Assembly (NCBI RefSeq): GCF_025602895.1
Contig: NW_026516243.1
Location: 62,001-126,000 of the forward strand
Direction: 5' to 3'
DNA from: Polychytrium aggregatum
Taxonomy: Eukaryota > Chytridiomycota > Chytridiomycetes > Polychytriales
Length of the DNA stretch: 64,000 nt
Each line of letters opens with the position of its first letter. Position 1 is the first letter of the stretch. The notes below the pieces were generated by a model. That model saw only the letters and a list, made by a program, of their open reading frames with translations. It ran no database searches and had not been told where the DNA came from. Below, one piece after another: positions 6,121 to 61,649 of this stretch. Both the position numbers and the translations under genes were made by a program.

Positions 6121-9100
6121 CTACATCCGGGAGGCTGCGGTGCTGAGGAACTCGACGTATCGGGGCATCTCGATGATGAAGATGTCAAAGTTGTGGGCGA
6201 TATCCTGCGGGAAGCTGATGGGATCCTCGAAGTTGTACGAATCAATCTCGGGGTGATCCTTGCGATACTCTTGCAGCGGCACAAAGCCCTGGCGACGCAG
6301 CTGGATGCGATAGGGGTCCACATAGGTCTTGGTGATGGTGTTTTCGGAGAGGTCGCTGTCGACGGTCAGGGGAGAGCCAATGTCGTCGTGGGCGGTCGTG
6401 GTCCGGTCGGACGGCTTGCGGCTCATGAACCAGGCATACCGGCACGGTGGAAAGATGAATCCAGAACTGCGTGCCTGGGCCTCATCCTGCAGAAATTGCT
6501 TGATCATGCGGTAGACCAGCGGGATCATGACACCTCCGGGGTCGTCGTGGCGCCGGTCGATGCGGTGGGTCAGCTGGAAGGTGCCCTCGAGCTGGCGCCA
6601 GGTGCCCGTGCAAAAGGCTCCGATGGCCCTCTCTGAGGATCGAGCGGCGGCGGAATCTTGCATCCGCTTGAGCGCTGCGGCTGCCGGGTTCTCACGGCGC
6701 GCCTTCTCGGCCCGGTACTTTTGCTTGCGCGACTTGATCTCAGGGATGAAGCCTAGCGTCAAATAGTTCTTGCGGTGGGGCTTGGTGGCCGTCAGCATCG
6801 GCAGAATGTCGTGGCTCCAGAGGGTCTCGATGCGGTGGCTGAGTTTCTCAAAGCTCGAAAAGTCGTCAAAATGCTCCATCACGCGCGACTGCCCGAGCTT
6901 CATGTACCACATGTCGACCCACAGACACCGCATCTGGTCGATCAGGGCCTGGATCTGCCCTTGCGACATTGTCACAGGTACGAACGAGTATCCGTCCGAG
7001 TTGAAGGTGGACGAGCTCTCTGCGACCAGCGGCAGGTGCAGTGTCCGGTACTCGACTGAGTTCAGCTCGCCGACTCGGTCGTGCGGCAGCCGGCAGGTCC
7101 GGCGGCCGTTGCCGAACAGCTCGATCGGCCGCCACTTGCCCGTTCGCCAGTATCCACCGCCGCCGCAGTTGGTGCAAAACTGGTACTTTTTCTGGCAGAC
7201 GGCGCAGACCGACTATCGGAGACGCAGATCGAGACCGAGAAGAATAGAGAGCAGGAGGAGAACAGAAGGATAGCAGGAGGAGAGTAGAGGGAGATTCATC
7301 GGCCCGTGGACACGGGAGTATTAGAAGAAGGAAAGAATAGAGTTGGACCGGACACTGCTGCTGGTTTTGGGCATCCAAATACTCGCATTCATTTCAGTTG
7401 AGCGGGCTGGCTGTCCAGACTTACCTCAACGCCGTACTCGGCATGCTTTTCGTTCAGGTTGATGGCGGCAACACCTGTGCCGATGGACTGCTTGCAGACA
7501 TGGCAGTCGATCAGCTGCGGTTGGTCCGGCGAGAAGGGCGCCATTCGGGCACGCTTGGTGCGCATAGCCAGGAGACCGGCGGACAGGACCACCGTACCCG
7601 AGGACGAAGCTTGCTCGTCTCCCCGGTCGCCATGCTCCGAGGCGGCACCCTCCGGCTGCGACTTTTGTGACTCGGTGGTGCAGATGAAGCACGAAAAATC
7701 ACGGACGACCGTTGGGGACAGATGCTGGATCTGCCCGTGGAATGTCAGGGTGATGCGTTGGACAGAACATGACTTGCACGCCAGCACCTCCTCGAGCTTG
7801 CCCTTCTTTTTGGAAAGGTCGTCGAGGTCCAAACCCTTGGGCGAGTCCGACACCGATGTCAAGGTCGAGCCCGAGGGATTGGGCGATGACTCTGGAGCCG
7901 AGGCCATGAGATGGTCCCAGCGCTTGCGCTTGCCAACGAGGCCGGCGGTCGGATCGAGTCCATCAGGCTGCGGCTCGTTGGCGGCATTCGGATCTGTGGC
8001 TGAGTTGAAGCTGGACGAGCCAGCAAGCATATGGCTCGATGGCGAAGCCTGGCCCAAGCCAAAGGGATTAGCGCCAAGCAGCTGGGGTACCGGTGAGCGG
8101 AGATCGGCAAAGGCGGCAGCGGTGACGGGGTGGCTCGATTTCGCGGGCTGGTCGGAGGCGAGCAGAGTTGTGCTGTGGGTGGGCTCTTGTTCAGGGTACT
8201 TGATGCCAAGGGTTTCAAAGAACTGCTGGCTGGTAAGGCTCAGTGGGAAGGACGGGCTCTGCTCGTAGCGGAACTGCGAGCTGAGAGAGAGGGAGAACGA
8301 GTCTTGGCTTGACGACCCATCGCTGTTGGCGTAAAAGTAGTACTCTGGATAGGCCGTTCTCTGGAGCCCTGCAAGTGGCCCTGCAAGTGGTCCCGCAAGC
8401 GGCCCTGCAAGTGGTCCTGCGAATCCTCGCTGGATCGTAATCATTGCGAGTGCGATTGAAATGCGTTGCGAGCGATGTTGCCAAATTGTCGAATTGCAGA
8501 GGTGCAGTTATCGAGAGATAGAAAATGCAGAGATACGTTGAGTCGTGGGCAATCGCAGGGCAGCCAAAAAGTCGTTCGTAAGAAATCAAAAGCAAAACAG
8601 CGAGACAGTGCGACTCGACATCAGGGCAGCTCGCAGCGGACTCGGTACATACCGCTGGATCCGAATTTGGCACGAGGACGGACGGCGGTGCATCGGAAGG
8701 AGCCCACAACTGCGTTGGGGCCGCCTGGGTCGACAGCAGCACGGGGGCCGGATCGAGCCCCGGCAGTGGGCCAGACACAGGGAATTGCGACGACAGCCGA
8801 TCCGAGAGCAGCGATGGTGCCAGCGACGAGGGAGGCGGCGGCGGCGGCGGCTGGATGACGAAAGGGTGGTGCGTCGGGGCCGGCAGCGGCTTGGAAGCCG
8901 AAAACGGCGGTCTCGGGAGGAAGGTCGGCGGGGCCGAGTAGAGATCGGACTGGGCCGGGAGGTTGAGGCCAGGGGCTCGCCCTGGCAAGGACGGCCACGA
9001 TCCAGACGGAGACGGAAGGGCCGGTTGGAACGGGGTCGACGACGAGAGCCTCGATGGGTCCCGCCGAGGCAGTGGCGACATGGGCTCCCGTTGCGGTATC

Positions 9101-9372
9101 GGGAGCGACGAGAAGCCTTGGCTCGGTATGCGCTGAAAGCCGGACTGGAACTCGGGCTGGAATTCGGATTGATATTCATGTTGAAAGTCCGGTTGGTACT
9201 CAGGCGGGATCAGGGGTCGTTGTTGATGCGGATATGGCAGTGCTGACGACGATGCTGCCGACGGCGATGAAGACGACGGCGGACCGGCCGAGGATCGGGG
9301 CTGCCAGGAGGCCGACGGGTTGCTGGCCGGATAGTAATGCGATTGCAGAGGAGGTGCGTTTGGATTGTTCAT
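6121..9372 (-). CDS. Gene A: Cys-rich zinc-module protein, tandem family member 1
   Basis: I do not recognise a characterised function. Exons on the minus strand: 9372-8653, about 8429-7425, 7212-6121; about 938 residues. The second exon's acceptor is uncertain (8429 or 8360) because it falls in repeats coding for Gly-Pro-Leu-Ala. The N-terminal 500 residues are Pro/Ser-rich with a poly-Pro run. Then come CKSC, CFIC and CHVC pairs, and, after the conserved intron, CAVCQKKYQFCTNC with a GGGG loop, WRTGKWRP, ELF and RRTC..H, a layout typical of Cys4 and Cys3His zinc sites. The C-terminal domain has QSRVMEHF, YLTLGFIPE, KYRAEKA, an FCTGTWRQLEGTF core, HRIDRRHDDPGG and DPYRIQLRRQGF. The last resembles the closing motif of GNAT folds, a weak inference. 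A regulatory or acetyltransferase-like role is conceivable, not shown. Start is ATG at 9372. Confidence 0.8.
8342..8429. repeat. 12-bp coding repeat in gene A at an intron boundary
   Basis: Four to five copies of a 12-bp unit (minus-strand GGACCACTTGCA and variants) would encode Gly-Pro-Leu-Ala. Each copy carries a CAG, so the region contains several potential splice acceptors. Confidence 0.8.
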
Positions 9373-12300
9373 CGAGAAATGTGGCTGCAGCGAGCTAAGA
9401 GGTCAAGTGGAAGGAGGTCAGGGACTGAGACAGGGCAGAAGTGGAAAAGGATCGAGGACACCAAGAGCGACGGCAAAATGAGCCGGAAGAGTTGCGAGAT
9501 AGAATAGGAGAGATACAAGGCAATTTGAAGGAATGGCGAGGGCACGCTGCAGGAATGGCGAGGCCAAGCGCAGAGAGAGAGAAGGCGAGCGATGCAGGCC
9601 GGGACAGCAAGGCGGGCAAACGGGTCCAAGGAGAGACCACAGAGCCGGACCAGCGGATCCAGCGAGGTTGTCAGCAGTGGATCCGCAGACGCAATGGGCG
9701 ATCGGGAAGGACGGAGGCAATTTGGGTGGCCGAGAATGGTCGCGGAGGGCGAGTCGTTGATGAGGGCAGCGAGCCGGCACCGACCGAGACAAGCAGAACA
9801 AACGCTGGGTTAGATGCGAGTCCAGCAGAGGTGGCAGATAAGCAAGAGTATAACGACGAGCAGGAACGAGAGTGGGAATGGGGACCGGGACTGGAGCGGG
9901 AATGGAGTGGGAAATGAAGCGGGAAACAGAGCGCAACCGGGATGGGCCGTTTCGAACAACAAGCGAGTGCCGACTTGGAGCGGTTGTCCTGGTGGTCCTG
10001 GTGGTTGTCTGGTGGCCGACCAGTCCAACACAGCAGCGAAGAGCGAGACGGGCCCGGAGGCACATTTGCATGCTTGATGCTTGCATGCAAGCATTCTTGC
10101 ACACCCAGCGCAGGCACATCCGGGGCTCGTCCCAAGGCACATCCGGCACAGCCATATCCACAGACACCTCCTGCCGAATGATTTGCACAACACCGACATA
10201 CCAGACGAGCGAGACGGCAGGACGGCAATTAGGCCACTGCCATCAAAACCAGAGTATGAAGTGGAAAGGGCAGCAGGACCGAGGATGTCCAGCGAGCAGA
10301 TGAAGCGATAGACAGCAGCGCCGACCAGGCGCCTGGGTCCGGTGGCGGTGGGGCTGGTGGGTTTTGGCAAGTGGTACTCCCAGCAGAGGCCTCGTGCCGG
10401 CGAGGTTGAGGGCAGACTGGCCGGGATGCGGGAGCAGAGACGCAAGAGCAGGAGTGATGATGAGCAGGGGTGGGGAAGCGCAGGGCTGGCCGCTTGAACC
10501 GGACAGGAAGTGGTCGGTGGTGCTGGTGGTGCTGGTGGTGCTGGTGGTGGACCAGGAGGAGGAGGAGGCCCGGCACACGGCGCGAGCGGTTGAATCTGCA
10601 AAGGCCCGCGAAGGAACAACCGGGCGGCAGCACTGCCCAGTCCTTGCTGCGGGTGTACCTGCCAAAGGCCGGGCTGGAGAGCGCTCTTGTCGGGCGGGCG
10701 CTTGTTGGGGGAGCGACTCCCACGAACGGCGGGTGGATGGAATGCCGTTCTTGTGCGGGCGAGTGCGCTCTGCTGCGCGGCGAGCTTGTGTCGGTTGAGT
10801 TTTTATTGTTGATGAGTTGGCGGTGGTGTTGATGAGTTGGCAGTAGTGTTGTTGAATTGGTGGTGGTGGTGTTGAATCGGCGGTGGTGTAATCCGCAGAT
10901 TGCTGCTGTAACATACATGTCGCTGCAATCGATTGAATGGCACTGGCGTTGGTCTTGGGACTTGGTCGCCCACGTCCAAGCGCCCCCTCTTCCCCATCCC
11001 GCCACGGCCGCGATGCCAAAACGTGCGCGGACACTGCCACGGGTGCTGAGGCTGCGGGCCGTTGCGCTGGCGACTCGGCCATCTCCAAGCATCGCCGAGC
11101 ATCGCCGAGCATCGTCGCTCATCGTCGCCCATCGCCCAACATCGCCGAGCATCATCCAGTTTCCATCCGGCTTCCATCCAGCATCTACCGCCGGCCTTGG
11201 CTCGAGTGGCCCTATATGCGCCAACAATCAATCTCGTGCTGCGACAAGGTCGCAAGCCCATGGGCGAGGACATCACCGGCACATCGTCTTCTCACCACTC
11301 CCGCATCGGTGCTTGGGGGCAGCCCTTCGAATGGGCCAGCAAAGCCGACGCGCCTGGCTGCACGCAAGGAGCGCCGGCCTTTGCCCCTCGCAAGAACCAA
11401 GCGGGTCTGGGGCAGCCACGATTCCTGGCCGGGGGGAGAAGGGATGCACAAGGGGCCCCTGTTGGGTTGGGGCTGTCCTTGGGCCGATCCCGCAGGCAGG
11501 TTGCTTCCTGGTCGACCAGGACCAAAGCGGCTCCAAGAGGTGGCTCCGGGCTGTCGGGCTGCTCATGGGGGAGGGAGGAGAAGCGAAAGCAGCACGGGCG
11601 ATCGAGGCGATCCAGCCCGGGAACCACTGTGGGCTCAGCTCTGTCAACCCGGCCGATCCAGTGTGCTCGGCGTTGCCACAGCGCAAGCGACGAGCGCAAA
11701 TTTGCTGGCCGGGACCAGCTGTGCGTGAAAACCATGTGCCTTTGGACCCACCCACCTTGACACTCGGCCGCGACTTCTATCGAGATCTGCCTCGTCGCAG
11801 CGCTGTCCCGCCCCTTCCCTGGCATAGCGAGCGCGGCCTGCCGAGCATGTCCAGAGAGTGGGCGCCACCCCGGCATCGTTCCAAGCAGCATCGGCAGCAT
11901 CGGTCCGCTGTGAGTCGGCTTGGGACGCCCGATGTGTCCATTCGAGTGCGCGCCGTCTTGGCCAATGGGGCGAGTCTCGCCATCGTCCTGCACTCAGCTG
12001 CTGCGATCCCCGCACTCTATGAGGACTCGTATTCCTTTCAGCTCTTGTCAAGGTTATATGCCGGATGCTGACGACAAGCCAAGAGCAAAGTAAAGATGGG
12101 GGCATCTCGTTTCGTTTCATTTCATTTTTTCATTTTTTTCATTTTCCATTGTCTGGATAGACTGTACATGGGAGGCACCTCCCTCATCTTCTCTCCGTAC
12201 ACCTGTATTCACACTCATCATCTAATCGCGACATTCACCGATCCGGATCTGGGTTCCTTATTAGATACATCAAAGGCCGTCTTGCACGAGGTCTCGGTAA

Positions 12301-12518
12301 GAGATCCAGACAACTATCCAAAAAAAAAAGAAGGCGGGGTAAGAGCACGACGGGGGGGGGTGTCGTTCCTTCGACCCAAGATCGGGGGAGGGAAGGAAGC
12401 AGTTGCCAAGGTCGAAACGGTGGTGCTGGAGAGCGAGACCAGGATCAGGAGGGCTGCGATGGCACCGTCTGGTAAGACGTCCTCTCGCACTCTCCTTCTC
12501 CTGCTCCGTCCTGGCCGG
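9373..12518. other. Long spacer upstream of gene A, no gene recognised
   Basis: From 9400 to about 10,700 the plus strand is purine-rich, so the leader transcribed toward gene A would be pyrimidine-rich, as in many fungal promoters and 5' leaders. At 10,800-10,900 there are GTTG/GGTGGT repeats; at 11,090-11,165 a CATCGCCGAG-type repeat; at 12,110-12,145 T-rich DNA that may belong to the 3' side of gene B. Long open frames on both strands are low-complexity and unlike any family I know. Confidence 0.6.
11088..11165. repeat. CATCGCCGAG-type degenerate tandem repeat
   Basis: About seven imperfect copies of a 10-bp unit (CATCGCCGAG, CATCGTCGCT and similar) lie in the spacer between genes A and B. 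Confidence 0.8.
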
Positions 12519-15500
12519 TCAACTCTTGGCAATGTTTCGCCTCAGGTATTCAAAGTATTTCGAGATCTCGATCACAAAGATATCATACTGCTGGACTTCA
12601 AGGCGCGAGTCGGCGCCGTGGTCGTCGCAGAACCAGTACTGGTCGACTTCGGGGTGCTGCTTGCGGTACTCTTGCAGCTGCATAAAGCCCTGGCGGCACA
12701 GCTGGATGCGGTACGGATCGACATAGGTTTTGGAGCCGGTGGCCCGGGCGTCGCCTCCAGAGTCGGATCGTCCCGCGTCCAGAGTATGGGCCGCATCGCC
12801 AGTATCGGCCGCCGAGCCCGTAGTGCTGCCTCCCGGAAGCATCTCGGCCTCGGACTTGCGGCTGGCAAACCAGACATAGCGGCAGGCCGGGAACGCAAAT
12901 CCAACCTCGCGTGCCTGGGCCTCATCCTGCAGAAACTGCTTGATCATGCGGTAGATCAGCGGGATCATGATGCCTCCCGGGTCGTCGTGGCGCCGGTCGA
13001 TGCGGTGGGTCAGCTGGAAGGTGCCCTCGAGCTGGCGCCAGGTGCCCGTGCAAAAGGCCCCGATGGTCTTCTCGGGAGGCTTTGCCGGCAGAGGATGGCC
13101 CCGCTTGCTGGAGGGTCCGCCGTCAGACTCGCGCAGGGCTTTCTCGGCACGGTAGCGCTGCTTTCTGTTCTTGTACTTGGAGATCAGCCCCAGAGTCAGG
13201 AAGGACTTGCGGTTGATCTGATGGGTGGTCAGCAGCAGCACAATCTCGTTGCTCCAGATGCGTTCGAGCTGCTGCGAGATCTTGCGGAAGGTCGAGTACT
13301 CGTCAAAGTGCTCCATGACCTTGGGCTGGGCCACTTTGGCCATCATCAGCTCCAGCCAAATGTCCTTGAGCTTCTTGAGGAGCAGGTTCAGCTCGGGATG
13401 CGAGAGCTTGGCCAGGTCCCAGTTGAGCCATTGGGTCGCATTGATGGGCTCGTCTCGCCGGGCGGCCACCGACGCAACCAACGGCAGGCTGCAGGTGGTG
13501 TATTCGATCCACTGGACTGGTCCGACTCGGTCATGCGAGAGGCAGCAAGTCCGGCGATGGCTGGCAAACAGCTCCTTGGGGCGCCATTTGCCCGTTCGCC
13601 AGTATCCGCCGCCACCGCAGTTGGTGCAGAATTGGTATTTCGCGTCGCAATGACTGCAAACCACCTGTGGCAATGGCCAAGTGTTGAATGTATCGCGGAG
13701 AGGAGCCAGACGGCATCGAGCAGATCAAACAGCACTGATTAGACAAGGTACAGCACCCAAGTGTCGCAACCATCACAATCATCACAACCATCACAGCCAT
13801 CACAACCATCACAATCATCACAACCATTACAGCCATCACAACCAGCACAATCATCACAACCATCACAACCATCACAACCAGCACAACCGTCGCCACCGCA
13901 TTACCTCGATGCCGAATCCATTGCTGTGCGAGTGGATCCGCATATTGAGCGCCGCCTTGGCAAACCCGATCGGCTGTTTGCACACATTGCATTTCAACAG
14001 CTCGAACCCCGGCGGCAGACCCGCGCCGGCTCGGGCGGAATGCGTTTCGGCCGGCGACTCGAGCTTGATGTGCTCTCGCCGAGGTGTCTCTGTTGGTATA
14101 TTGCTCTCGGCCGCCATCGCCACCGCTGCTGCCGCTGCTGTTGCTGCTGCTGCGACCGAGCCTGGGATCGGGACACCTAGCGAGAGCACAAGGGTTGGGT
14201 CGGGAGGACCTCGGGCCATCGCCGCCTCCAGTCGTGCGATGCGCTGTTCTTCGCATGCCTGGCACACAAACTGGACAATGAACGGCCGTGGCACGTTGAT
14301 CGTCTTGCGAGAGCCCCCCAGGAATGTGATGCAGGCCTTGGTATCTTGGCAGGAGAGACAGACCAGCGACTCGACCGGATGCGTGGCAGCGGTGTCGGGC
14401 TCCGACGCAACCAGCGCTCCTGGCCCTGGCGAGAGCGCGTCCGGCGAGAGCCCCTGCGGCGGTGCAGACGCACAAGTAAGTTATCGTGGGAACGCACTCG
14501 GCCAGCCGATTCCATGCTGCCGACGACTTGCAAACGCCAGACGCCATCCACTGGACAGTCTCCTGCTCGAAGCCGACCACACTTCACAGACTGCACGGAC
14601 TGCACTCGGACACGTTCTCGTGAGAGATGACCGACTCCATCCCCGCCCCTCAGGTTTAAATCACAGCCGGGCTGCATCGCCGCCTGTCTTGACCTCGCCG
14701 ACTGGTACCCTCCGCCAGTCGGCATGAACCACATGCCGAAATATCCTGTGCCTGCCGTCCTACACTACCCCAATCGCATGCCCGATACTGATGACAGTGC
14801 TCTGCTGTGACTCCTGCCCCCGTCATGCCTTTCTGCCCGCATCGTTCCCCGCTCCGACCACACAGACCCATCCCCACACACACTCGCACTTACTTGGTCC
14901 TCGTAACCGACAGGGCTGGGGTGATCGGCGACGGGCTGGCCCAGCGACGAGCGCTCAGCGACCGAATACCACGGCCACGGCGCGACCGGAGAGCCGGTTA
15001 GCGCATCGAGCGACTGGGCAGGCGCGGGCGGGAGCTGCTGATGGACGAGGTGAGCCTGAGCCGCCGTCGGGCCTGGCGATCCGTGGCGAGTGGACGGCAG
15101 CAGCGGCGGCGGCCATGGCGTCCCATGGAGCGGCCTCGTATCTGACCCCGAGGGCAACACCAACTCGACGGCTTTGTTGTCCACTGGCAGGGGCATGTGA
15201 TGGCTTGGACCGTGGGACCCTTGTGGCGGGGTCTGCTCGGCAAGGTGGTCACGGCGGTGGTCCTGATTGACGGCGGTGGTTCCCATGTCCCGCGGTGAGG
15301 GCACGAGAGTCGGCCGCCGGTTTGCCGTTTCCGAGGCCACGGTTGAGAAGGGGAGGGGAGGCAGCAATAAGCAGATCCCAGACAACAACGACACAAAAAA
15401 AGGAAAGAGAAACAAGGGTTGGTTAGGCGGATGGACAGCGGTGAACGGCACAGACCCTCAAATGCCAAGATGGCGAGTGCCAGAACAGCGAAGCGCTGGC

Positions 15501-16970
15501 ACGACCCCCCTCCCTACAAAGCAAACAAGCCCCTTCGCCAGGACGAAAGGACGAAAGGACAAATCCAACGAGCGATACAGCCGGGTGCTGGTTGTCGCCA
15601 TGAGTAACTCTTACCCAGTATGACGGTGTGTCTGGACGGACAGACTCCTGCCACCGCAGACCCGGGGAGGCCAGACCCAGAGGCACCGGCGGAAGCAGCT
15701 GCGGCTGGGGCTGCAGTGTGTGGAGATGCTGGTGCTGGTGCTGGTGCTGGTGCTGGTGCGGCCGAGGCAGTGCCGGATAATGATACTGAGACTGTGTTTG
15801 GGATTGGGGGTGAGGCTCCAGTTGCGGTTGCGGTTGCGGTTGCGGTTGTGATCGCGATTGCGGTTGCGGTTGCAGTTGGAAGGGTAACTGCGGCTGCAGC
15901 TGCGGCTGAGGTTGTGGCTGAGGTTGTGGCAGTAAAACGGAAGAGGATTGCAGTGGCGGAAGCAACAGCGAGTACTGCTGAAGAGGTGGGACCGGCGAAT
16001 TGGACGGAACAGACCCTGATTCGCGGCTGACGAGAGCTTCGCTGCCCGGACCGAGACTGAGCGATCGATAGTTTTGCCCAATCGACATGGTCTCGGGATA
16101 GCCGTAGCCCGGGCTGCTGGCAAAGTTGCGGTCGAGGGCAGGGTGCGGATGGTCCTGGGAACGAAATGAGGCGGTCGATGGCTTGTCTAGTCCTGGGTCG
16201 TGGTCTGAGCCTGGCTTGGATGCATACGCTGGGCCGGCGACCCACACAGACCCAGAGCCGAGGGTCGAGGAAGGATCCAGCGACTCTGATTCGTAGCTGC
16301 CCCTGACGGAACCAGCCAGTGCCGGCTGCAGATACGACGGTGGCGAATACGGCCACAGCGAAGAATTCCAGTTCAAAAGTTGGGCCTGAGAAAGCTCGAG
16401 CGGGCCGCCGGGCGGGGGCTGAACGAGTGCCTGGGCGGGATGGGCATGGTCCGGGTACTGAATGGATCCCAAATCGAGGGCGGGCTGGTACTGAGCCGAC
16501 ATCCTGCTCCGATCCCTCGAATAGCCAAGGCGATCGACTTGGCCGCGGAGAAGGAACGACGGGCTCGCCAGGGTGTCCAGCGACGAATCGGGCGTCACAA
16601 AGGTATTGACGGGCGCCGGACCGGCAAGGACGGAATTGCTGGAGACTGTGGCGTCGGGGGTGTATGCACCGTGCGAATACTCGGGTCCAAAGAGCGGATG
16701 TCGGTCCATGGGAGGAGCAGTTGGATGGATGCGATGCAGAGACGGCGATGCGTTTGTGGGGTGGTGTGCAGGCGACAGGCCGGTCGGAGCAAACGGGACA
16801 GCATCCCGAGTCGCAGCCAGCGGATAGTGCTGCTGGAACAGCGCAGCACGGCTGCCGTCCTCCCGAGGCAGCGGGTAGTGGGTCTGGCTGCTTACAGATG
16901 AATTCCCCCAGTGAGAGCTGGATGCATCGGCAGGGTCCTCTTCTGGGTGGAATGGAGATGGGTGCTCCAT
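12519..16970 (-). CDS. Gene B: Cys-rich zinc-module protein, tandem family member 2
   Basis: Function unknown. Exons on the minus strand: 16970-15615, 15262-14894, 14453-13905, 13664-12519; 1139 residues plus stop, all phase 0. The first 570 residues are low-complexity, with alternating Gln-Pro and Gln-His runs. Three CxxC pairs (CLSC, CQAC, CNVC) precede the conserved intron. The last exon opens with CSHCDAKYQFCTNC, then GGGG, WRTGKWRPKELF and RRTC. The C-terminal core keeps KVMEHFDEYSTF, FCTGTWRQLEGTF, HRIDRRHDDPGG and YRIQLCRQGF; SRVMEH of the paralogs is PKVMEH here. A poly-Ala run sits between CQAC and CNVC. An in-frame ATG at 17309 would add 113 residues, but a good acceptor with a CTAAT branch site near 17,055 suggests an intron, so 16970 is preferred. 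A further 5' exon is possible. Confidence 0.78.
13768..13889. repeat. 9-bp CATCACAAC satellite in an intron of gene B
   Basis: About thirteen copies of CATCACAAC/CATCACAGC fill roughly half of the intron 13665-13904. On the transcribed strand this reads GTTGTGATG repeats close to the 5' splice site. Confidence 0.9.
15718..15935. repeat. Coding microsatellites for Gln-His and Gln-Pro runs in gene B
   Basis: GCTGGT units (minus CACCAG) encode a Gln-His run, followed by GGTTGCGGTTGC-type units that encode Gln-Pro runs. All stay in frame within exon 1 of gene B. Confidence 0.85.
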
Positions 16971-17976
16971 TGTCGGAGCCGATGCGACGGTGGGAGACGA
17001 GACGGACGCAACGACTGCTGTGCTCTCTCTTGATGGAGGTGTATCCGGGACCTGCAAGCGAGGCAATACATTAGCACATGTGCCGGGAGACAAAAAGTAT
17101 CCGGGCGGTAGATTGGGGAAGGGGGCGTGGACAGCCAGGTGCCAGCGATGGGGGGAGAGTGCCAGCGAACGAGCACCAACAGACAGGCGCCCGCAAATGG
17201 GTGCTGTACGATCGACAGGCTCAGCGAGAGCCGAGATGCGCAGATTGGACGGAGACGAAGACGAGACCGAGTGCAGGCGGGGTGGGTGAATCTGCTGGGC
17301 CTGGGACATGAATTGGTGCGGAAGCGTGGTCGGTGCGAGCGAGGGCGATGGGGGGGGGCGTGGAGGGAAGGGTGCGAACCGGGGACCAGACGCAGCAAGG
17401 GACCAAACCAGAGCGATGGGGGAGGCGGGTACCTATGCGATTGATCTTTGGCGACGATCCGAGACCGGTCCGACAGGGGGTGGAGCCGAAACAGGAACTT
17501 TATAGCAGATGCGACGGAGCAGTCGACCGACAGCCGAATCGCGGGATTAGATGGACAGGCGGCGAATGGACAAGGACGGGCCCGAGGCGAGGAGGCACTA
17601 CCATCGAGCGCTTTTTTGGGGAGAGGGAGGGCGAGCGAGCGAGAGGAGAGCGAGAAAGAAAGCGCCGACAAGCGGGAGGGGCCGAAGAAAAGATCTTCAG
17701 GAATCCGAGCCGGCACGGAGTGCGACATAGTTAACGTTGTTACGCGCAGCAAGGGCGAGTAGGCCCATCCATGGCCTTGCTGCGGGCGGCGACGGGTATA
17801 GCGCGGGCGGCCAATGGCATTGTGCGGCCAATACCGGCTCTGGCTCCGCGACACAGACGCAGCAGCAGCACGAGCGATAGAGATAGAGATAGTGATGGCA
17901 ACGGCGACGGCAACGGCAACAACAGCAGCGATGGCAACAACACGAACAAGGGCAGGAACAACACCAGCATCAACAT

Positions 17977-18029
<53 letters not shown>

Positions 18030-18030
18030 A
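17977..18030. repeat. CAACAG hexamer repeat
   Basis: About nine uninterrupted CAACAG units lie roughly 1 kb upstream of the gene B start codon. They are not part of a supported coding exon. Confidence 0.9.
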
Positions 18031-21000: not shown

Positions 21001-22325
21001 CGGTCTCGCAGAGGCACACCGGATCAGTCCGCCTCCTCCTTCTCGTACCCGCTCCCGTGTGGCGGCCACTGGCCACACTCCACCGCCGTCGGCTTCTGAT
21101 CGGCCAATGCTCAGACAAAGCTCAGACAAAGCTCTCCTCCTCCGTCCATCTCTGCGATCCACCCGCCCGCCTCCGAGCACATTGCGTGCACATCATGTCA
21201 GCTGTGCACCACTTCCTCGTTCGTTTGTAAAGGTGGCATGTGCTGAGGCATAGGGCACTCACCCGCCCACCTTTATTTTCCTTTCCTGTCCTTTGGGTGA
21301 TGAGGATCCCTCCCTTCCTCGGCTCGAGCACTGAACCAAACTACATTCTGTGTCGCCTTTCCCACAGACGTTTCATGACAGGGGGTGGCTCGATCGATGG
21401 GACCTGGCGAGGCGAGGAGGCCAGCGGTCGGGCGGTGCCGGAAGAATTGCAAAACTATGTACATGTGCGTTGCTCCTGCCGTCCAGCCCCACTGGTTGTC
21501 CACGAAACCCGCACGTCTGCTTGCACAAAGAGCCGGCTTATCCCTTGGCAAGGCCCAATTCACACGGTCCAGGGCGCTTGCGACCATGGGTCCCGCGGGA
21601 GAGGGTGCAGGCGAGGGCGAGAGACGCGGGGTGGGCTGGAGCCTGCCTCGTCTCGCTGCCGACGACATGGCCGTCTCGCCCACCCCGCTCCCAGGCCCTC
21701 TTGCAGGGCCCGGAGGGACGCCAAATGAGAAAGACTGCCATGGGTTCGTCGCTGCCGCGCTGTCGCAGGCACGCCCCGGCCCGGGCAGAGCGGCCGCCAT
21801 TCCTCATCTTGATCGTCACAGCACCCGGTCGGTCGATCGGTGCGGTGTGGTGCGGTGCGGTGCTGCACAGCAATCTGCCTTGGGTGCTTGTGCTTGCGCC
21901 GGAGGATCGTGCTTGGTCCATTGCAGGTTTTGCATATCCACGGTATGTCTCGCACGTCCATCGTATGCAGAGGCATTCTTCCAGACGAGTATAGATCGAC
22001 GGATCCTGTCGAGCCATTGGCGATGTCGGCTGTCTGCTCGGGTTGCTGCTTTGGCTGTCCCATCCGACCAGTCGCGATCCCATTCAGCTGTTGGTTTTTG
22101 CCTTTGGGCCGCCGGCCATATTCCCACGCCCCTTCTTGATCAGTTTGCGGCCACTCGGTGTCCTGGCTTGTGCCGTGTCTTAATGCAGTCGTGGTCTCGA
22201 CAGGTGCGACCAACTAGGCTCAGCTCAGCTCGGCCCAGCTCGGACCGGGGCCGAGTCGGCTCAGCATGCGGATGCGACGAACCGACCAACATGGGCTATG
22301 GGATCCTGTCCCTGCTCACCCGGCC

Positions 22326-22385
22326 AGCCAGTCAGTCAGTCAGCCAGTCGGTCAGTCAGTCGGCCAGTCGGTCTGCCTGTCCTCG
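22326..22385. repeat. AGTC/GGTC-type tetranucleotide repeat
   Basis: Degenerate CAGTCAGTCAGCCAGTCGGT units about 0.5 kb downstream of the gene C stop codon. Confidence 0.8.
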
Positions 22386-22865
22386 CTCAGTAAGTCGGTC
22401 TTGACGCTGTCCTTCTTGGACGACCCAGCTGAGTTGGGTGGGCGCTGATGAGATAGATTGGGCTGAGCTCCTCCTTGGCCGTGTGCGACGCATCCACCCC
22501 TCCCGATTGGTGTTGTGCGGACGATACCCGAGGGAGGAGGGGCCCAGGTCGATCCCGGGCTGATATGGAGTGGGCCGGACTGCATTGGTTGCGCTGGTTG
22601 CTGGCCTTATCGGTGGCAGTTGGATCGCTCCGATGAGACACTGTTATCGTTGGGTGGGTTCTCATCTTGGATTCAGCCGTTCTTGCCGCCGGTGGAGAGC
22701 GAGGGAGAGGAGGGGGGCGAGGAGAGAGAGAGAGAGAGAGAGAGGCGCGATTGGAACTCCTCGGAATCCAACCGAGCATGTTGAGATGATGGAGTCGGGA
22801 GTTGCGAGCCGGGGAGACCTCTCAGTGCCAAGAGGGAGGAGCCGCAGACTCACCGCACCCATCCT

Positions 22866-25800
22866 TCACACCATCATCGACACAGCCGAGTCCAGATAGT
22901 CCACAAACTTTGCAATCTCGACCACAAAGATGTCAAAGTTGTGAAGCACCTCAGGTGGATAGCTGTCGTCTTCAAAGGTATAGTCGTCGGCCTCGGGGTG
23001 TCGGAGACGGTATTCTTGTAAGGGCAGAAACCCTTGTCGGCGAAGCTGGATCCGATACGGGTCCACAAAGGTCTTGGCCAGATTGCTTTCGTTCGCGGTG
23101 GGGGGCATGGTGGCATGGGCCGCGGGCGCTCCCGAGGCGATGCGTTGTGGAACGGGCTTCTTGAGCGAGCTTGGGGTGGACCGAGGCAGTTCCGATGGAC
23201 CTTGGCTCTGCCCGGCGTCATCGTTGTCGCTGGCGAGAGCGGCGACGGTGGTGGTGCTGGTGGTGGTGGTGGTGGTAGGTTGGGCAGTGGCTTGCGACGG
23301 CAGACCAGGCACCTCGGGCTCGCTGCATATCGGCTGCATGTCACCCGAATGCTCGGTCGCCACGCCGCTCTGTGCATCGGATTCGGTGTCGTCGCCAAAG
23401 ATGGCCGAGGTCAGATCCGAAGACTTGCGGCTGACAAACCAGGCGTACTTGCACACCGGGAAGATCTTGCCCCCAGCTGCTTCGTGGCGAGCTTGCTCCT
23501 CGTCCCGCATGAACTGCTTCATCATCCGCTGCAGCAGCGGCACCATCATGCCGCCGGGATCCTCGAGTCGCTTGTCGACTCGATGGGTAAGTTGGAAGGT
23601 GCCTTCGGTCTGCCGCCAGTTGCCAGTGCAAAAGCCGCCGATGATCTTGTCGTGCGACTTGCGACCCTTGTTTGCCGCCGACAGACCGACGGCCGATGAC
23701 GAGGACGAGGACGAGGACGGGCCCAGGAGAAGCGACCCGGCCGATGACGACGACGCCAGCGACGACGATGACGACGATGCCATTGCCGACAGAGTCTTCT
23801 CGCGCTGGGCCTTCTCGGCGCGGTACCGCTGCTTGCGCGAGATCAGCTCCGGAATGAAGGCGATCGTCAGATAGCCCTTTTGGTTGTCCTTGCGCTGGGT
23901 CAGCAGCGGCAGGATGTCGCGGATCCACATGGCATCCAGTCGCTCTGTGATCTTCTCGAACGTGGAGAAGGATTCAAAGTGCTCCATCACCCGCGACTGC
24001 CCGAGCCGAAGCAGCCCCACGTCCGTCCAGATGCCATGCATTTGCTCGAGAAGCAACTGTCGCTGCCACTGCATAAAGTCTTGGTCCGACGACAGGCCCG
24101 TGATGGTCTGGCTCTGGACATTGGCAGTGAGTGGCAGCGCCCAGGTGACGTACTCGATCTCGTTGACTTCGCCGATGCGGTCGTGCGGAAGTCGGCAGGT
24201 TCGGCGGGCGTACCCAAACAGCTCGGCCGGTCGCCACTTGCCCGTGCGCCAGTGGCCGCCGCCACCGCAGTTGGAGCAGAACTTGTACTTTGTGGTACAC
24301 GGATCGCACACGAGCTGCCAAAACGGAGAGAGGGTAAGTGCAGGACGGCGGTGTGAGAGGCATGGAGAAAGCAGTGCGCGCTGCCGGGGTGGCGATCGAC
24401 ATGGGCGGCGATGCAGGCAGCAGCTTATCGCCCACCTCGATGCCGACGGCGTTCTTCTTGGATCGCAGGCTTTCTTCCTCGATGGCAACCCGCCCAAACC
24501 CAAAGGCTTTCTTGCACACGTCGCAGGTAAAGTACTGGTCTTGGTCATGTTCGTATTTACGCTTCCGCTTCGAGGCGCCGATCAGCCGCGAGGCGAGCGG
24601 CTGCCCAGACCTGTCTGGGTCGTCGAGCCCATGGTCTTGATTCAGATCCTGCGGGACTGCTTGGCTGGGCGCTGTTCCGTTGCTTGCTTGATGGCACGAC
24701 ACACAGTCGAACTGAGAGATGATGCTGTGCGAAACGAAGGCTCCGGACGCCTTGCCGAACAAGAACGCCTGGCCTTTCTTTTGGTTGCATCCGCGGCAAA
24801 GCAAGGCTTCCTCGAACTTGTTCTTGCGGGGCGCCGACTCGACACCCCCGGGCGGGTCGCTCTTTGTGGACGCCGAACCTGGCACTTCGGCACCGAGGTA
24901 AGCCGCATCGGGCGGAGAGGTTCTCGCGGCATGTGCCAGAGTCGGCCGGACATCGGACTGAGGATCGGAGACTGTGGACGGGTGGGGTGCTGGTGGTCGG
25001 GCAGAGTCGTGGGCGAGGCTCTTGGTCGACCAAGATGGCGGCACTTGCGATATGGCCTGGTTCCGGAGCTGGCTTTGAGAGTGAGGATCCGGGTAGACGT
25101 CGGTCCAGTCGGAGCGAGTACCCGAATACGATGCAGATGTTTGCGGAGGCTGCAGTGCCGAGAAGATGCCGGGGCCGGCCGCTCTCTGAGAAATGAACCA
25201 ACAGATGAATGGACGAACGGATGAATGGATGAACGGGCAGAGGCGTATGTGCAAGACCAAGAAGCAACCTCGATCGCAATTCCCCCGCCTGGCAGCGTTC
25301 TCGGAATCAACTCGGAGCCCAAGAAACACTCCTGCTGTCGACACCGACTTACATGTTGCGACGGAGCCTCGAATGCGTCCCGAGGATCGGCCAGATTAAT
25401 CGGATGCAGCGGCTCTCGTCCCGAGCGAGGTGCAGGGGCGGCATACTGTGCCAGAGTGCTCCAGGATGCCGGAGGAGACGAGTGCAAGCCATCGCCAGCA
25501 GCCGGACCCGAGGGCCGGGCAGCGGCCAGGGTATAAGACGACAGGCCCGGTGGCAGGGCTGACGAGGAAGGGCGCAGGTCCGAGGAGCCATGGTGGTACG
25601 TTTGCTGATACGGAGGCTGGTGCGGCGGCGGATATGGCTCCAGCGAGTACTTTTGCGGGTGCTGGTGGAGCGATGGCGGACGGCCAGAGCCGGATGTTAT
25701 CGGGTCGGCCAGTGGCGGAGGCAGCCGCCTCAGCGTCGAGGATTCGTTTACAGGCAACGGACGATGGGCAAAGGCATCGATCGAGTACGCCGAGAGCGAC

Positions 25801-26120
25801 GAGGCCGGCGCTCGGTCCCGGGCATAGCTGGCCGGGCGTTCGGAGATCCGTGGAGGTGGCAGAAGAGGAGGAAGGGACGAATCGCCGGGTCGGCCAGGGC
25901 CGAAAAAGTCTCGAGCACGGAGAGGCAGCAGCGCGGACGGAGGCGAGTCGCCTGGATAGAAGGCCGGCGGATGCTGGTCGTCTCGCCGGAAGGGCAGCTG
26001 GCCAAAGGACAGAGGATTACTCGGCAGCGGGGCGGCCGGTCGGCGATGCAGATCGTTGGGTACCTCGGCGGGATCGAGCGGGCCGTATGGGTTTTGATAA
26101 GGGTGGTTTGGGATAGACAT
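22866..26120 (-). CDS. Gene C: Cys-rich zinc-module protein, tandem family member 3
   Basis: Function unknown. Exons on the minus strand: 26120-25353, 25185-24436, 24314-22866; 988 residues plus stop, all phase 0. The N-terminus is Pro/Ser/Tyr-rich. CRGC, CVSC and CDVC pairs follow, with basic KRKRKYEHDQ before CDVC. The last exon begins LVCDPCTTKYKFCSNC, then GGGG, WRTGKWRPAELF and RRTC. Family motifs follow: QSRVMEHFESFSTF, YLTIAFIPE, KQRYRAEKA, FCTGNWRQTEGTF, HRVDKRLEDPGG and DPYRIQLRRQGF. Two insertions set it apart: a poly-Ser stretch before the FCTG core, and a Thr-rich linker before the final motif. The 5' splice site of the last intron is GTGGGC. ATG 26120 is chosen; an in-frame upstream ATG at 26210 would add 30 residues of leader-like sequence. 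Confidence 0.8.
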
Positions 26121-28242
26121 GGCGGCGGGGGCGGCGGGAAAAAAGAAAGGATATACAGCGGCGAGTTGGATCTTGGATGGCGGGATGAGTGTCCAAGGAT
26201 AGGGGGTCAACGCACAATCAGCAGCGAGACCACCAGGGGTGGATTGTGGGGAGGGACGCCAGCTGGGCGAGAAGAACGATTGCTGGCTGTGGAGAGGGGC
26301 ACTGATGGAATCGCAGATGAGCGGGGGAGGTCGCAGGACTGGTTCTCCAGCAAAGGTGTGTACTCAGCCCAAAGAAGGAGAGGGGCGACAGACGGGAAAG
26401 AGTGGGTGCGAACAGAGGTAAAGAAGCGGATCGGCTGCAACAAGCAGACGAACGGACGGAGCAGGACAGCAGACAGAAGCGGGGGGGGGGAAATCGACTG
26501 CAGACGGTGCCGTGGGGCCGAATCGTCAGTGGGGATGGGCAATATACAGCCGCAGAATCGGAGCAGAGGCGAATGGGGACTGGTGTGGGAGACGGGGAAG
26601 GGCAGGACAGGGGAGCGTTGCAGGTCAGAAAGTCACGACTGAATGCCCAATCCAGGAGACCGAGTGTTCCAGAACAGAAGAGCACAGAGGAGATGCTGTT
26701 GGTGGGGCTTTATACCGCCGTCGCGGGGGGGGGGCACTGGAGTATGAGGGTGGTAGGAGCGACCAGTGGCCGGCTGGAATGCTGAGGATCGGCGATCGCG
26801 AGGCGGGTGAGCCAGGCGAGCGACATGGGGGGAATGGGGCAGAGCGGCGGAAGGGAATGGGATGGGGACGGGGGTGACGAGCCGAGATGGGCCCGGAGAG
26901 GCCGTGGTCGGTGCAGCAAGGGATCGGGCGGCGGACGGCAGTTGAACGGCAGTTGAACGACAGTTGAACGACAGTTGGACAGAGGGGGGGGGATCGACCG
27001 TGAGAGGGTGGGGAACAAGGCTGGCAACGGGGAAGGAAGTTGGTCGAAAGTGGCGGCTGGGGTGGGGTGCGGCGCCGGAGATGGGCATTGGTGGGAGGGA
27101 GATGTTACATGTTGCAGCCGGTCGTTGTCGAGCTGCGGGTGGTTGTTAACTTGCGGTCTCGCAGCATGCAGTTGTTAAATTGCAGGTAGGACGCTGCTGG
27201 GGTGGTCGTTGGTCGTTGGTCGTTGGCAACATGTGCTTCTTCTGCCGCATGGACCAAATTGCCGGGGGGAGACCACGCCGAAGGATTTGCATCTGAGCCA
27301 GCGCCGTCAACAAACACTGGACGGGGGAACGGCGACGGGGATGCGGTGGACGAGGGCCACGCAGGTACCAAAGGCACATCGTGGGGGGGGGAGGGAGCGA
27401 GATGCTGTTATACGGCGGGACAGACCGGGTGGCTCCTTCCCCACTTTACCCCGCTGGGTCCGCTGGGTCCGCAATCGAAGCGGCATCGTTGGATATACAC
27501 TCGTTTGGGAGTAATCACATCGCCTTTGAGAGTCATTGCATCGGATGCACCTCGATGGAGGCAAACAAGGCCAAATGCTTCCTCCGGGGAAATGCACCTC
27601 CGACCGCTGATGTCGGCCTGCCCGTGGTGCAGCCGGCCTTTGGTGGTTCAGAGCACAAGGACTCCATGGCGACCATCCTTTGGCTGTCCTGTGTGCACCG
27701 GCATGCCGCCCGGCCCCCCCCCCAACATCCCCGTCGAGAGGATGAGGGGTGGAATTGCCTTGTGGTTGTGCATCCACCATGGGCCTTGCCGATGCCACCG
27801 ACGGATCACCTCACCCGAACGGCCGAGCGATTCAGCGGCATTGCAGCGTTCACGAAATGGTACGTGTGGCATGCAGCGTTCACGAAATGATACGCCATGA
27901 TTATCCGCACTTGTGTTTTCCTCTGTGGTTGCCAGTTGCGGGATTGGTCGTGTGTATTCGGTGAACCAGAACGAAGAGCCACCAGTCCTCGACCGGGTGT
28001 CGCATTTGCTTCGCAACTGCTCACATATACCGACAAAGACAGTAACAAAAAAAAAGGACCTATTTGGGAGACGGAAGGACCCGAGAAATAGTCGGAGCGA
28101 TTTTAGGGACTAGGCCAACAGTCGTAACAATTTTTAGGGATCGAGAGGTGGTCGGAATACCGATGGGCGGAAATAAAGGAAAGAAGTAGAAAAAAAAAGA
28201 GGAGGGAGGGGAGGGGAGAGTGTCAAGCAACCAGGCTCGAAA
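26121..28242. other. Spacer upstream of gene C, no gene recognised
   Basis: From 26,150 to 27,090 the plus strand is G/A-rich (pyrimidine-rich leader toward gene C), with G-runs near 26,482, 26,728 and 26,985. GTTGTTAA and repeated GTCGTTG words lie at 27,105-27,235. From 27,430 to 27,800 composition turns C/T-rich on the plus strand. A duplicated segment around GTTCACGAAATG occurs at 27,849 and 27,879. The part next to gene D is A-rich (28,040-28,200). Confidence 0.55.
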
Positions 28243-31200
28243 TTAGGATAACGGGGCAGCGGTTTCTAGGAATTCAAGAAAGCGAGTCAACTCAGTCACA
28301 AAAATGTCAAAGCTCAGCGGATTCTGGCCGGCATAGGACCCGAGATCGGCCGTAAACTTGTACTGGTCCACCTCGGGATGCTCGAGCCGATATTCGTGCA
28401 GCGGCAGAAAGCCCTGGCGTCGAAGCTGGATGCGGTACGAGTCGACATAAGACTTGAGCGACTCGGTTTCTTTGGCGAGCACCGACGACGGCTGCTGCTG
28501 CTGCTGCTGCTGTTGCTGTTGCTGTTGCTGGATTTGCAGTTGGTGCTGCTTCTCCTGGCAAGGCTCCCAGCTGGCGGTGCTTCCGGTCTCGGAGCAGGAC
28601 GGGTGCTCGCACGACTTGCGGGCCATGAACCAGACGTAGCGGCACTTTGGGAGGCCGTGTCCGGCACGCTCCATCTCGGCTTCGTCTTGCAGGAACCGTC
28701 GGAGCATCCGGTGGATCAGCGGCAGCATCATGCCTCCGGGGTCGTCGTGGCGCCGGTCGATCCGGTGGAAGAGCACAAAGGTGCCCTCGAGCTTCTTCCA
28801 GTAGCCCAGGCAGAACCCGCCGACGATGGTCTCGGACCGCTTGCAGGCATCGGGGCTTCCAGAGCCGTCGATGGTGCCTTCGACCTCGCCATCGCCGCCC
28901 TCGCCAGCGATGCCTGCTGCCAGCGAGGCCGTCACCGCCCCCCGGGTGATGCCTGAGCTAACCGTCGTAAGGCCGTAGTTTTCTCGCTTGGCCTTCTCCA
29001 GACGGTACTTTTTCTTGCGCGAGATGATCTCGGGGATGTAGCCGAGCGTCAGGTAGCCCATGCGGTCGGCGCTGGAATCACACAGGAGCGGATCAATGTC
29101 GGCTCGCCAGAGATGCTCGATCTTGGTCTTGGTCTTGTCAAAGGTCGACAGCCGCTCGAAATGCTCCATCACACGGGACTGAGCCAGCCGGACGAGACCG
29201 AGCTCGATCCAGAGCTGGTTCATCTGGTTATAGATCTCATGGTGGGCGCCGGCGGTGGTGCCCTGGCCGCTGGCCATGGCCAGGGGCAGCTGGTAGGTGC
29301 TAAAGTCGACGTGATAGCTGTTGCCCATGCGGTAGTGCGACAGTGCGCAGGTCTTTCGGCCGTTCTGGAAGAGCTCGGCTGGCCGCCACTTGCCGGTGCG
29401 CCATTGACCGCCGCCGCCGCAGTTGGTGCAGAACTGGTACTTTGACTGGCACGGGGAGCAGATGAGCTGCAGCCAGGGATGGGGGGAGGGCGGGCAGGTT
29501 AGAGATGGGATCGCAGAACGATGGCAGCGCTGACGATGTGTCTCGGATCGAGACGAAAGGAGTGCCCGGTTGCTCCATGGCGCCGTTACCGAAACCAGAC
29601 GATTCCCCAACGAACCAACAGCACACCTCTGCTTTGGCTCGACGATCCCGTTCAGCCGCACAAGCACCCAGCACCCAGCACACATGCATCCGCCCGCACA
29701 ACCCACCTCGACGCCAAACTTGTTGTTGCGGTGGTAGATATCAAAGGAGAGCCGGCCCGAGCCAAACGAGCGCTTGCAGATGCTGCAGTCCAAGACCTGG
29801 TCGCGATTCGGGTAAAACTTTTTGCGACGGGAGGTCCTGCGATGGCTCTTGACGGGGGTATGGATCATCGGCAGGGACAGGGACAGGGACGACGCCGACG
29901 ACGTCATTGTCGATGCCAATGCCAATGCCGATGTCGATGTCGATGTCGATGCCGATGCCGATGCCGATGCCGCCTGGGTATCGTACAGCAGCTCGGGGTC
30001 CATCGGGGGCACACGGCAGTTCGAGCAGTGGAAGCGGCTGATTGCCGGCTGCGGGAATGACTGGGCGTCGCAGTGGAGCAGAAAGAGTGCCTGGTAGCTG
30101 CAGCTGCCGCATCCGAGCACCTCCTCGATCTGCTTGTTTTTCTTGCCGGGGGTCTTGGGTCCGCGCGGCGCCGCGGCGGCAATGGTTGTGGCTCCTGTGA
30201 CTGCTGTGGCATCGTCGGGCGACGACCGGGTCGAGAGAGGAACTGTCGGGCTCTTGACCATGGCATCGATCGCGGATGAGGACGAAGACATGGAGCCACG
30301 CTTGGCGCTCTGCACCAGGACGGTGTCGCCGTACCAGTCGACGAGCCGAGGCAGTTTGTTGGAGCCCTGGATGGACGGCTCGGGCCCGCGCTTGTGCAGA
30401 CCCGTCTTGAGGGCCTCACTCCCAAGAGGATGGCCGAAGGAAATGAAGCTGGGAGGATCCAGACTGGACATGCACGGCGAATGGTACTTTTGCTGGACTT
30501 GACCGACGACGGCGTGCGGGGAGCCGGGATGGGGTGTCTCGACTGGTGAAGGAAGCGGCGGTGTTGCAGGACGGAAGCCGTACAGATGCCGATGGGAGGA
30601 GCCCGAGGGCGGCGAGTCCAGCGGCGTCGCAAAGGAGCCGCGGGGATAGCCAGTGGAATAGCCGGTGGAATAGCCGGTGGGGACAGGGAGCGTGCGGGCC
30701 AGGTCCGAGGGCGAAGGCGAAGGCGAGGACGATGCCGACCAAGAGAGTCTGTAGGGATGGTGCTCGGGCTGGGACGAGTATCTTGGTCCATGTGGATCTG
30801 TTGGGGAGCCACCCCCATAGACAGGATCCCACGGATGGCGAGTGGGCCGAGGATGGGCGGAATGGGGCGACGGCTGAAGGGCGCAGGATGAAATCGCGAG
30901 TGTGGCATGTCGGTGCGGGGGGGGGAGTGTATGTCCCGATGGGATGCAAGAGCGGTTTGTGAGATGCAATGCAAGAGCGGGATGCACAAGACATGCATGC
31001 AGGCAAGCGTGCGGATACAGGTCGAGCTAACGACACCACAGCCGAGCAAACACCACAGCCGAGCAGGCGAACAAACACAAGCGAGTAACCGGGCGATCGC
31101 AGCGGCAAGGACACCCAAAGGACCAATCGTCGCCGCGACTGCAGCCTCGGAAGCGATTCCCACCCTGGTCGCTCCTGGCCCACCCCCCGCCGCTTCCCAT

Positions 31201-31908
31201 GGCTGCCCCTCCCGAACCAGGACGGGCCAGCCCCGCTCTGGTTCGTCCTTCGCGGCGACAACCCACCCAACACACACGCAGGCATCATATGGCACCGCCC
31301 CGTGGTCTTACCGAAATGGCCGGCAGCGTCGGCGCCGAGTCGTGGCCGGGGTGTGGATGGTGGGGCAGTCCTCGGGCGAGGTCGCCGCCGTCGTTTCTGC
31401 CGGCAGAAACGGGGCTATGACTATGGCCATGGCCATAGCCATCCGATCGGAACACCGGGGCACCAAAGAGAGGCTGGCTTCGATCGACAGGCGACGCCAG
31501 CTCGCTGTCGCGGAAAGTGGCCAGGTCCGGGTAGTTGTGCGAGAGCCGGGTTTCGGGCTGGATGGCCGGCGGGCGCATGGACTCGGGCGACTTGAAGTCG
31601 CCGTGCCCGGGATAATACTTGTGGTCGCCAGAGACAGGATACTCGGCGGGATATCCCGCCGGCCATTTGGGAATCACAGCGGACTCGGGCGAGGGCAGCG
31701 CCGAGTTCTGGTGATGGTATGCTGGCCGATAGGAGGCCGCAGCCGCAGGAGGATCCCGGGAGACAGATACAGACTCGAACGAGAGAGGCGGCGGACGCAG
31801 GTGAGACGATTGGCGATACTCATCAGCAGACCGGACCGCAGGTGAGAGCGAGCCCAGGGATAGCCGGAGGCGAGCGGGCAGATCCTCTGAGGCGTGGGAG
31901 GGAGGCAT
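28243..31908 (-). CDS. Gene D: Cys-rich zinc-module protein, tandem family member 4
   Basis: Function unknown. Exons on the minus strand: 31908-31312, 30873-29707, 29466-28243; 995 residues plus stop. The N-terminus is Pro/Ser/His-rich. CGSC, CSNC and CSIC pairs precede the conserved intron, and an Ala-Ser repeat lies between the second and third. The last exon starts LICSPCQSKYQFCTNC, then GGGG, WRTGKWRPAELF and RKTC..H. The C-terminal domain keeps QSRVMEHFERLSTF, YLTLGYIPE, HRIDRRHDDPGG and SYRIQLRRQGF, but its core reads FCLGYWKKLEGTF, the most divergent version. A poly-Gln run of about 13 residues precedes the last motif. The intron 29467-29706 is 240 nt, has no in-frame stop and could be read through. 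Start is ATG at 31908. Confidence 0.8.
28491..28532. repeat. CAG/CAA repeat coding for poly-Gln in gene D
   Basis: Plus-strand CTG/TTG triplets read as CAG/CAA on the coding strand and give an uninterrupted Gln run inside the C-terminal domain linker. Confidence 0.9.
29915..29976. repeat. GATGTCGATGCC-type coding repeat in gene D
   Basis: Six-base GATGTC/GATGCC units code for an Ala-Ser/Thr-Ser run between two CxxC pairs of gene D. Confidence 0.85.
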
Positions 31909-61250: not shown

Positions 61251-61649
61251 GGGGGTCGTTGGCGAAGATGGAGTTGGCGGGTGAAGTTGTTGATTGCGAT
61301 GGTGAGTTGACACGATCGATGGATGCGCCGGTGAGATGGAGGGACGGATCGCGACGATCGACAGAGACGAAGTGAGTCAGTGATGATGATTTGGATCCGT
61401 GCAAATGATGAATTGAACCCTGCGAATGATGATTTGGATCCGTGCAAATGATGAATTGAACCCTGCGAATGATGAATTGAACCCTGCGAATGATGAATTG
61501 AACCCTGCGAATGATTTGAATCCGTGCAATGATTTGAATCCGCGCGGACGCATGGCGCAATCGGGCTTGGTCGTCCTCCACATGTGCTTTCCCCCCCCCC
61601 TTGCTTTTCCTGTTTGTCCATCTCTCTCCCTCATCCGCTCAACCTCAGC
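61251..61649. promoter_or_regulatory. Divergent promoter region with degenerate repeats
   Basis: 399 bases separate the two start codons. Most of it is a tandem array (61,384-61,530) of units built on GAATGATGAATTGAACCCT and GATGATTTGGATCCGTGC, followed by a C-run at 61,592. A role in transcription is inferred from position. Confidence 0.6.
61384..61530. repeat. Interspersed 18-20 bp repeats in the divergent promoter
   Basis: Two related units alternate: one ending TTGGATCCGTGCAAATGATG, the other TTGAACCCTGCGAATGATG. Together about seven to eight copies. Confidence 0.85.

Follow-up and report, generated by a model that had tools for sequence, protein, structure and literature searches.

What do four neighbouring, cysteine-rich paralogues encode that lie in tandem within a 64,000-nucleotide stretch of genomic DNA from contig NW_026516243.1 (hereafter the window), and what role might their products play in the cell? 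Translation of the minus-strand frames confirms the initial annotation in its description of a leftward tandem array of four genes, here A to D, with shared motifs and further CxxC pairs, which we find in the upstream exons of all four. Its span of 6121 to 31908 is also correct, since these positions mark the end of A and the probable ATG of D, and the motifs that it listed are present in A-D, save that LEGTF reads TEGTF in C. Identity to A is 54-55% for B, 57-58% for C and 50% for D. The DNA pattern for RTGKW, allowing at most one mismatch, was found six times where chance would give 0.64; the four matches in the array are exact. The proteins were originally described as of unknown function; no Pfam model matches them above its cut-off, but the description can be narrowed, as the C-terminal domain is predicted to adopt the fold of GNAT N-acetyltransferases. 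We propose, at what we judge to be even odds, that A-D are part of a 12-locus family of nuclear regulatory proteins that join a zinc module to a GNAT-like domain.

The four copies first reported thus make up the array and not the whole family. When the 64.7 Mb, 418-contig assembly of which the window is one piece was searched with four protein queries (C, A, K and H), all returned the same 12 loci, counts that are lower bounds: the array plus eight dispersed genes, E-K and M. For nine of the 12 loci, copies occur on two contigs, and for G, H and I on one contig only. The array itself is present twice, on contigs C346 and C49, and because the two copies are 99.6% and 99.4% identical over blocks of 19.7 and 8.3 kb, these contigs look like two haplotypes. 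The genome also contains the Fungal_trans domain (11 matches) and a radial-spoke protein (four matches), so a flagellated fungus with both haplotypes assembled is the most likely host. In a tree of 11 members, with M left out, A-E form a clade (support 98/99) whose inner order is unsettled, and G, H and J are grouped (support 100/98); long branches, of which the tree program warned, leave the remaining groupings unsure. The last frame of gene F (L017/L018, on C386 and C387) spans 428 amino acids on one contig and 414 on the other.

Two cysteine modules recur in the 11 members read. The first follows the pattern CxxC-x24-28-CxxC, and the second consists of CxxCK, 24-68 residues, CxxC-x6-CxxC-G(G/A)GG, 18 residues and TC-x3-H. 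Together they supply 4 + 8 = 12 conserved residues presumed to bind zinc (11 Cys and 1 His), which we infer suffice for three zinc ions, and the string RTGKWRP is invariant in 11 of 11 members. Among the ten pairs that can be drawn from A-E, the nonsynonymous substitution rate (Ka) is lowest in the zinc part of the last exon (0.14-0.28), with 0.30-0.60 in the GNAT core and 0.52-0.78 in the linker. The N-terminus is long and of low complexity, with a heptad-like helix recognised by eye in G, H, J and M. In A-F, module 2 is split by an intron at a common site (phase 0, GT..AG borders), which follows G(V/I/T)E immediately and lies two codons ahead of the next CxxC; the intron is absent in G-K, where one frame runs from module 1 to the end. 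Member M (L045 on C312, and C368) is, in this reading, interrupted within module 2 in both haplotypes. A stop is seen and the frame is lost after FCTE in the one haplotype fetched; the interruption may be an intron or a broken gene.

The initial annotation had suggested structure prediction of the last exon, with zinc sites, as a check. Models of A and B, built from four-sequence alignments, return a predicted GNAT fold with Gcn5/PCAF high among the structural matches. In these models an additional charged helix lies between strands 2 and 3, and strand 5 is separated from helix 4 by an insert of low complexity. The C-terminal domain is probably of GNAT fold. With the GNAT superfamily it shares the predicted fold, the order of strands and helices and, in most members, a GF at the end of helix 4; it differs in its large inserts, in lacking the P-loop consensus, and in having no PF00583 sequence match.

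Several results weigh against the GNAT assignment and the family reading built on it. Model confidence is low, with a mean predicted local distance difference test score (pLDDT) of 54.6 and 50.5, and about 30-63 in the zinc part. No Pfam GNAT model matched the family proteins scanned. In fact, no Pfam model passed the cut-off in the last exons of A, B and C and the D frame (E values up to 10) or in A exon 2 and the G-K frames (E values up to 1), scans that left out E, F and M; this agrees with the zinc-module reading of the initial annotation and with its failure to tie the proteins to a known family model. The best match below the cut-off was COG2_C in B (E value 0.022), and a zinc-ribbon model touched B at an E value of 4.5. 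The zinc modules, too, are without a match to any named fold. Sequence and profile searches of the PDB gave nothing below an E value of 0.15; the schistosomin match at that value covers 17 profile positions and was taken as chance. A search of the same genome with PF00583 gave 22 matches, none at the 12 family loci. Finally, hhalign comparison with 10 GNAT segments drawn from these 22 matches gave probabilities below 1% in four runs made without a positive control, a failure that either counts against the GNAT reading or reflects low power. Pattern searches of viral contigs (27 matches) and of bacterial and archaeal genomes (42 matches) yielded none that was confirmed. Three family motif strings had no occurrence in the papers searched, and the listings from general literature searches included no paper recognisable as describing this family.

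A further such point concerns the cofactor loop. The passages on the P-loop in PMC4964394 give the GNAT consensus as Q/R-x-x-G-x-G/A, between strand 4 and helix 3, and describe both active enzymes with atypical P-loops and one GNAT domain that is inactive and has no such Gln/Arg. At the expected loop the consensus is found in none of the 11 members, and the four matches to it, in B, E, F and I, lie elsewhere; since it is missing there, we do not file the family as canonical GNAT enzymes. In A the loop reads D-R-R-H-D-D-P-G-G. The surrounding motif FC.G.W..(L/T)EGTF.L.HR.D.R..DPGG is strongly conserved in A-D, and DPGG is confined to these four (DPHG in F, DIEG in E, KIGG in K, and none of these in G, H, I and J). 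Asp 219 is kept in 10 of 11 members, and 9 of 11 have a basic residue two positions further along. Counting back four places from the G of the GF motif gives Leu in 9 of 11 members and Tyr in F; in I the position cannot be assigned. Several GNATs from the same genome carry Tyr at this place, a residue that is catalytic in some GNATs. We read these sequence features as an altered cofactor or ligand site, and a pseudo-enzyme, an acyl-CoA (coenzyme A) sensor and an unusual acetyltransferase are all possible.

How, then, might these proteins act? The combination of a disordered N-terminus, a heptad-like helix in G, H, J and M, basic patches, zinc modules whose basic, Trp-bearing loop is invariant, and a GNAT-like fold makes a chromatin or promoter regulator the most likely role. 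Three zinc ions would hold in place a surface that is basic and bears Trp (WRTGKWRP, R(R/K)TC), and this surface would contact DNA or chromatin. The GNAT-like domain, having no canonical CoA P-loop, would be an atypical domain for acyl-CoA binding, interaction or sensing, or else an acetyltransferase that works by an unusual mechanism, and would change transcription at the bound sites. We infer every step of this scheme beyond the predicted fold.

Known systems offer partial parallels. According to the portions of PMC8619123 that treat Spt10 of yeasts and moulds, this fungal regulator has a GNAT-superfamily domain and a zinc finger, and its substrates are obscure; in B. bassiana Spt10, the GNAT domain occupies residues 84-228 and the finger is of His2-Cys2 type. 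By analogy Spt10 is the nearest possible functional likeness, sharing the presence of a GNAT-like domain and a zinc module in one fungal regulator. Identity with Spt10 was nonetheless rejected: the ligands here are 11 Cys and 1 His, divided between two modules, and in the members read these lie ahead of the GNAT-like domain, whereas the finger of Spt10 follows its GNAT domain. In the MYST/ESCO acetyltransferases a zinc finger does lie N-terminal to, and near, the GNAT-fold domain, an order that the present family shares, and neither a MYST/ESCO finger nor a catalytic domain matched above the Pfam cut-off in the family proteins scanned. The Zn2Cys6/Fungal_trans factors resemble the present proteins in that they, too, form a fungal gene family and combine a Cys-rich module with long disordered stretches. 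However, the Zn2Cys6 ligand spacing is unlike that found here, and neither Pfam model matched the last exons of A, B and C, the D frame, A exon 2 or the G-K frames.

Three other readings of the proteins compete with the proposed role. First, the family could comprise sequence-specific transcription factors whose GNAT-like domain is catalytically dead and serves for dimerisation or cofactor recruitment. This alternative falls only a little short of an even chance: the P-loop consensus is absent from every member read, the zinc part is more constrained than the rest, and a heptad-like N-terminal helix (G, H, J and M) and low-complexity N-termini are features of the kind seen in many transcription factors. 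Yet A-D keep many polar residues near the would-be cofactor loop, and the conservation of Asp 219 and its basic neighbour suggests a bound ligand. Second, the proteins could be active histone or protein acetyltransferases, in which the conserved DPGG loop takes the part of the P-loop in an atypical form and the substrate is recognised through the zinc module, as it is through the zinc parts of MYST enzymes. The prominence of Gcn5/PCAF among the structural matches and the strong conservation of the loop motif in A-D speak for such an activity, and atypical P-loops in active GNATs offer a precedent (the P-loop passages of PMC4964394). The other members, however, have a different loop or lack the motif, and in 9 of 11 members Leu stands at the place before the GF motif where Tyr is catalytic in some GNATs; we regard this alternative as rather unlikely. 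Third, the GNAT match could be an artefact that arose from modelling an alpha/beta domain unrelated to GNAT, so that the family would be new in both halves. The low pLDDT, the four-sequence alignments and the lack of sequence evidence would all be expected in that case, which we hold to be improbable.

Are the genes of the array functional at all? Across the ten A-E pairs, the synonymous rate (Ks) over the whole last exon is 0.89-1.49, near saturation, and Ka/Ks is about 0.3-0.6. Comparison of the two haplotypes covered 12 exon parts, not every base of each gene, and allelic indels were confined to three of these: A exon 1 shows 3 bases, and B exon 1 (part 15700-16970) and D exon 3 show 6 each. 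Seven gap-free parts, when translated, differ by one amino-acid change in total. The copies had been called intact, and within the exon parts compared this is supported. Taken with Ka below Ks, the triplet-only pattern, for which indel lengths were tabulated in exons only, supports the view that A-D are real and maintained genes. That the array consists of decaying or mobile-element-derived copies without function, as its tandem layout and the interruption of M in both haplotypes might suggest, is very improbable given triplet-only allelic indels and a Ka below a near-saturated Ks. The frame 28243-31026 of gene D encodes 927 amino acids in one haplotype and 929 in the other, and a poly-Gln stretch in the exon may hold the indel.

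Between A and B, one tract stands apart. In the GNAT core (6489-6618, minus strand) the two genes share 80 exact bases, and 115 of 120 positions are identical in three 40-column blocks; the other A/B blocks with at least 36 compared positions range from 43 to 88%, the next best being 69 of 80 at A exon 3 886-965. The A-B Ks is 0.53 in the GNAT core vs 1.70 in the linker. Recent gene conversion between A and B is the simplest reading, and a probable one. The initial annotation had taken the retention of four diverged copies to suggest distinct roles; the near-identical tract argues instead that this part of the GNAT core is being kept alike.

All parts of the four genes lie on the minus strand. 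A exon 1 (8653-9372, probable start 9372) is an open frame with donor GCG/GTATGT and encodes the disordered, P/S/Q-rich N-terminus. A exon 2 (7425-8429, with an acceptor at 8430 picked by eye) encodes a disordered region, a basic patch, module 1 (7680-7778) and the first CxxC of module 2 (from 7505); exon 3 (6121-7212) supplies the rest of module 2 (to 7081) and the GNAT-like domain (about 6124-7059). In B, the last exon (12519-13664) carries CxxC-x6-CxxC-GGGG..TC-x3-H and the GNAT-like domain. The last exons of C and D lie at 22866-24314 and 28243-29466. The portion of the upstream exon from module 1 to the donor spans 13905-14384 in B, 24436-24822 in C and 29707-30135 in D, and the intron of D at 29467-29706 is open in the same frame as its flanking exons. 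The N-terminal exons, with approximate 3' limits, are at 15600-16970 in B, 25560-26120 in C and 31400-31908 in D, with probable starts at 16970, 26120 and 31908.

Eight long frames between the copies and two beyond D gave no Pfam match at an E value of 0.01; small genes, or genes of a kind not recognised, may still lie there. Beside the array is an arginine methyltransferase gene (35301-37023, minus strand) with a PRMT_C match at 35301-35780; its 36538-37023 frame has no Pfam match and is PRMT-like by eye only. A long simple repeat at 36064-36273 reads (His-Ile)n in one minus-strand frame. A UDP-glucose:glycoprotein glucosyltransferase gene follows in several frames at 38585-45662 (plus strand; Pfam matches at 38585-39058, 43241-44092 and 45327-45662), and a homocysteine S-methyltransferase gene lies at 60195-61376 (minus strand). 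Two ribosomal RNA probes found no match in the assembly, whose ribosomal DNA may be missing or masked, or may differ at the probe sites.

What would these genes mean for the fungus? In the fullest form of our proposal, which is possible but which we hold well below even, they would encode undescribed fungal regulators in which a three-zinc DNA or chromatin module is coupled to a re-purposed GNAT fold. This fold would sense an acyl-CoA or some other metabolite that bears phosphate, either in place of protein acetylation or in addition to it; in a zoosporic fungus the family would have grown in number, and gene conversion would have made it partly uniform. If the family reading is true, a family without a model in the copy of Pfam searched would become a group of chromatin or transcription regulators that lends itself to testing, in what seems to be a flagellated fungus. 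It would represent a new pairing of a zinc module with a GNAT-like fold, in which an acetyltransferase fold minus its usual cofactor loop is combined with a targeting module under strong constraint.
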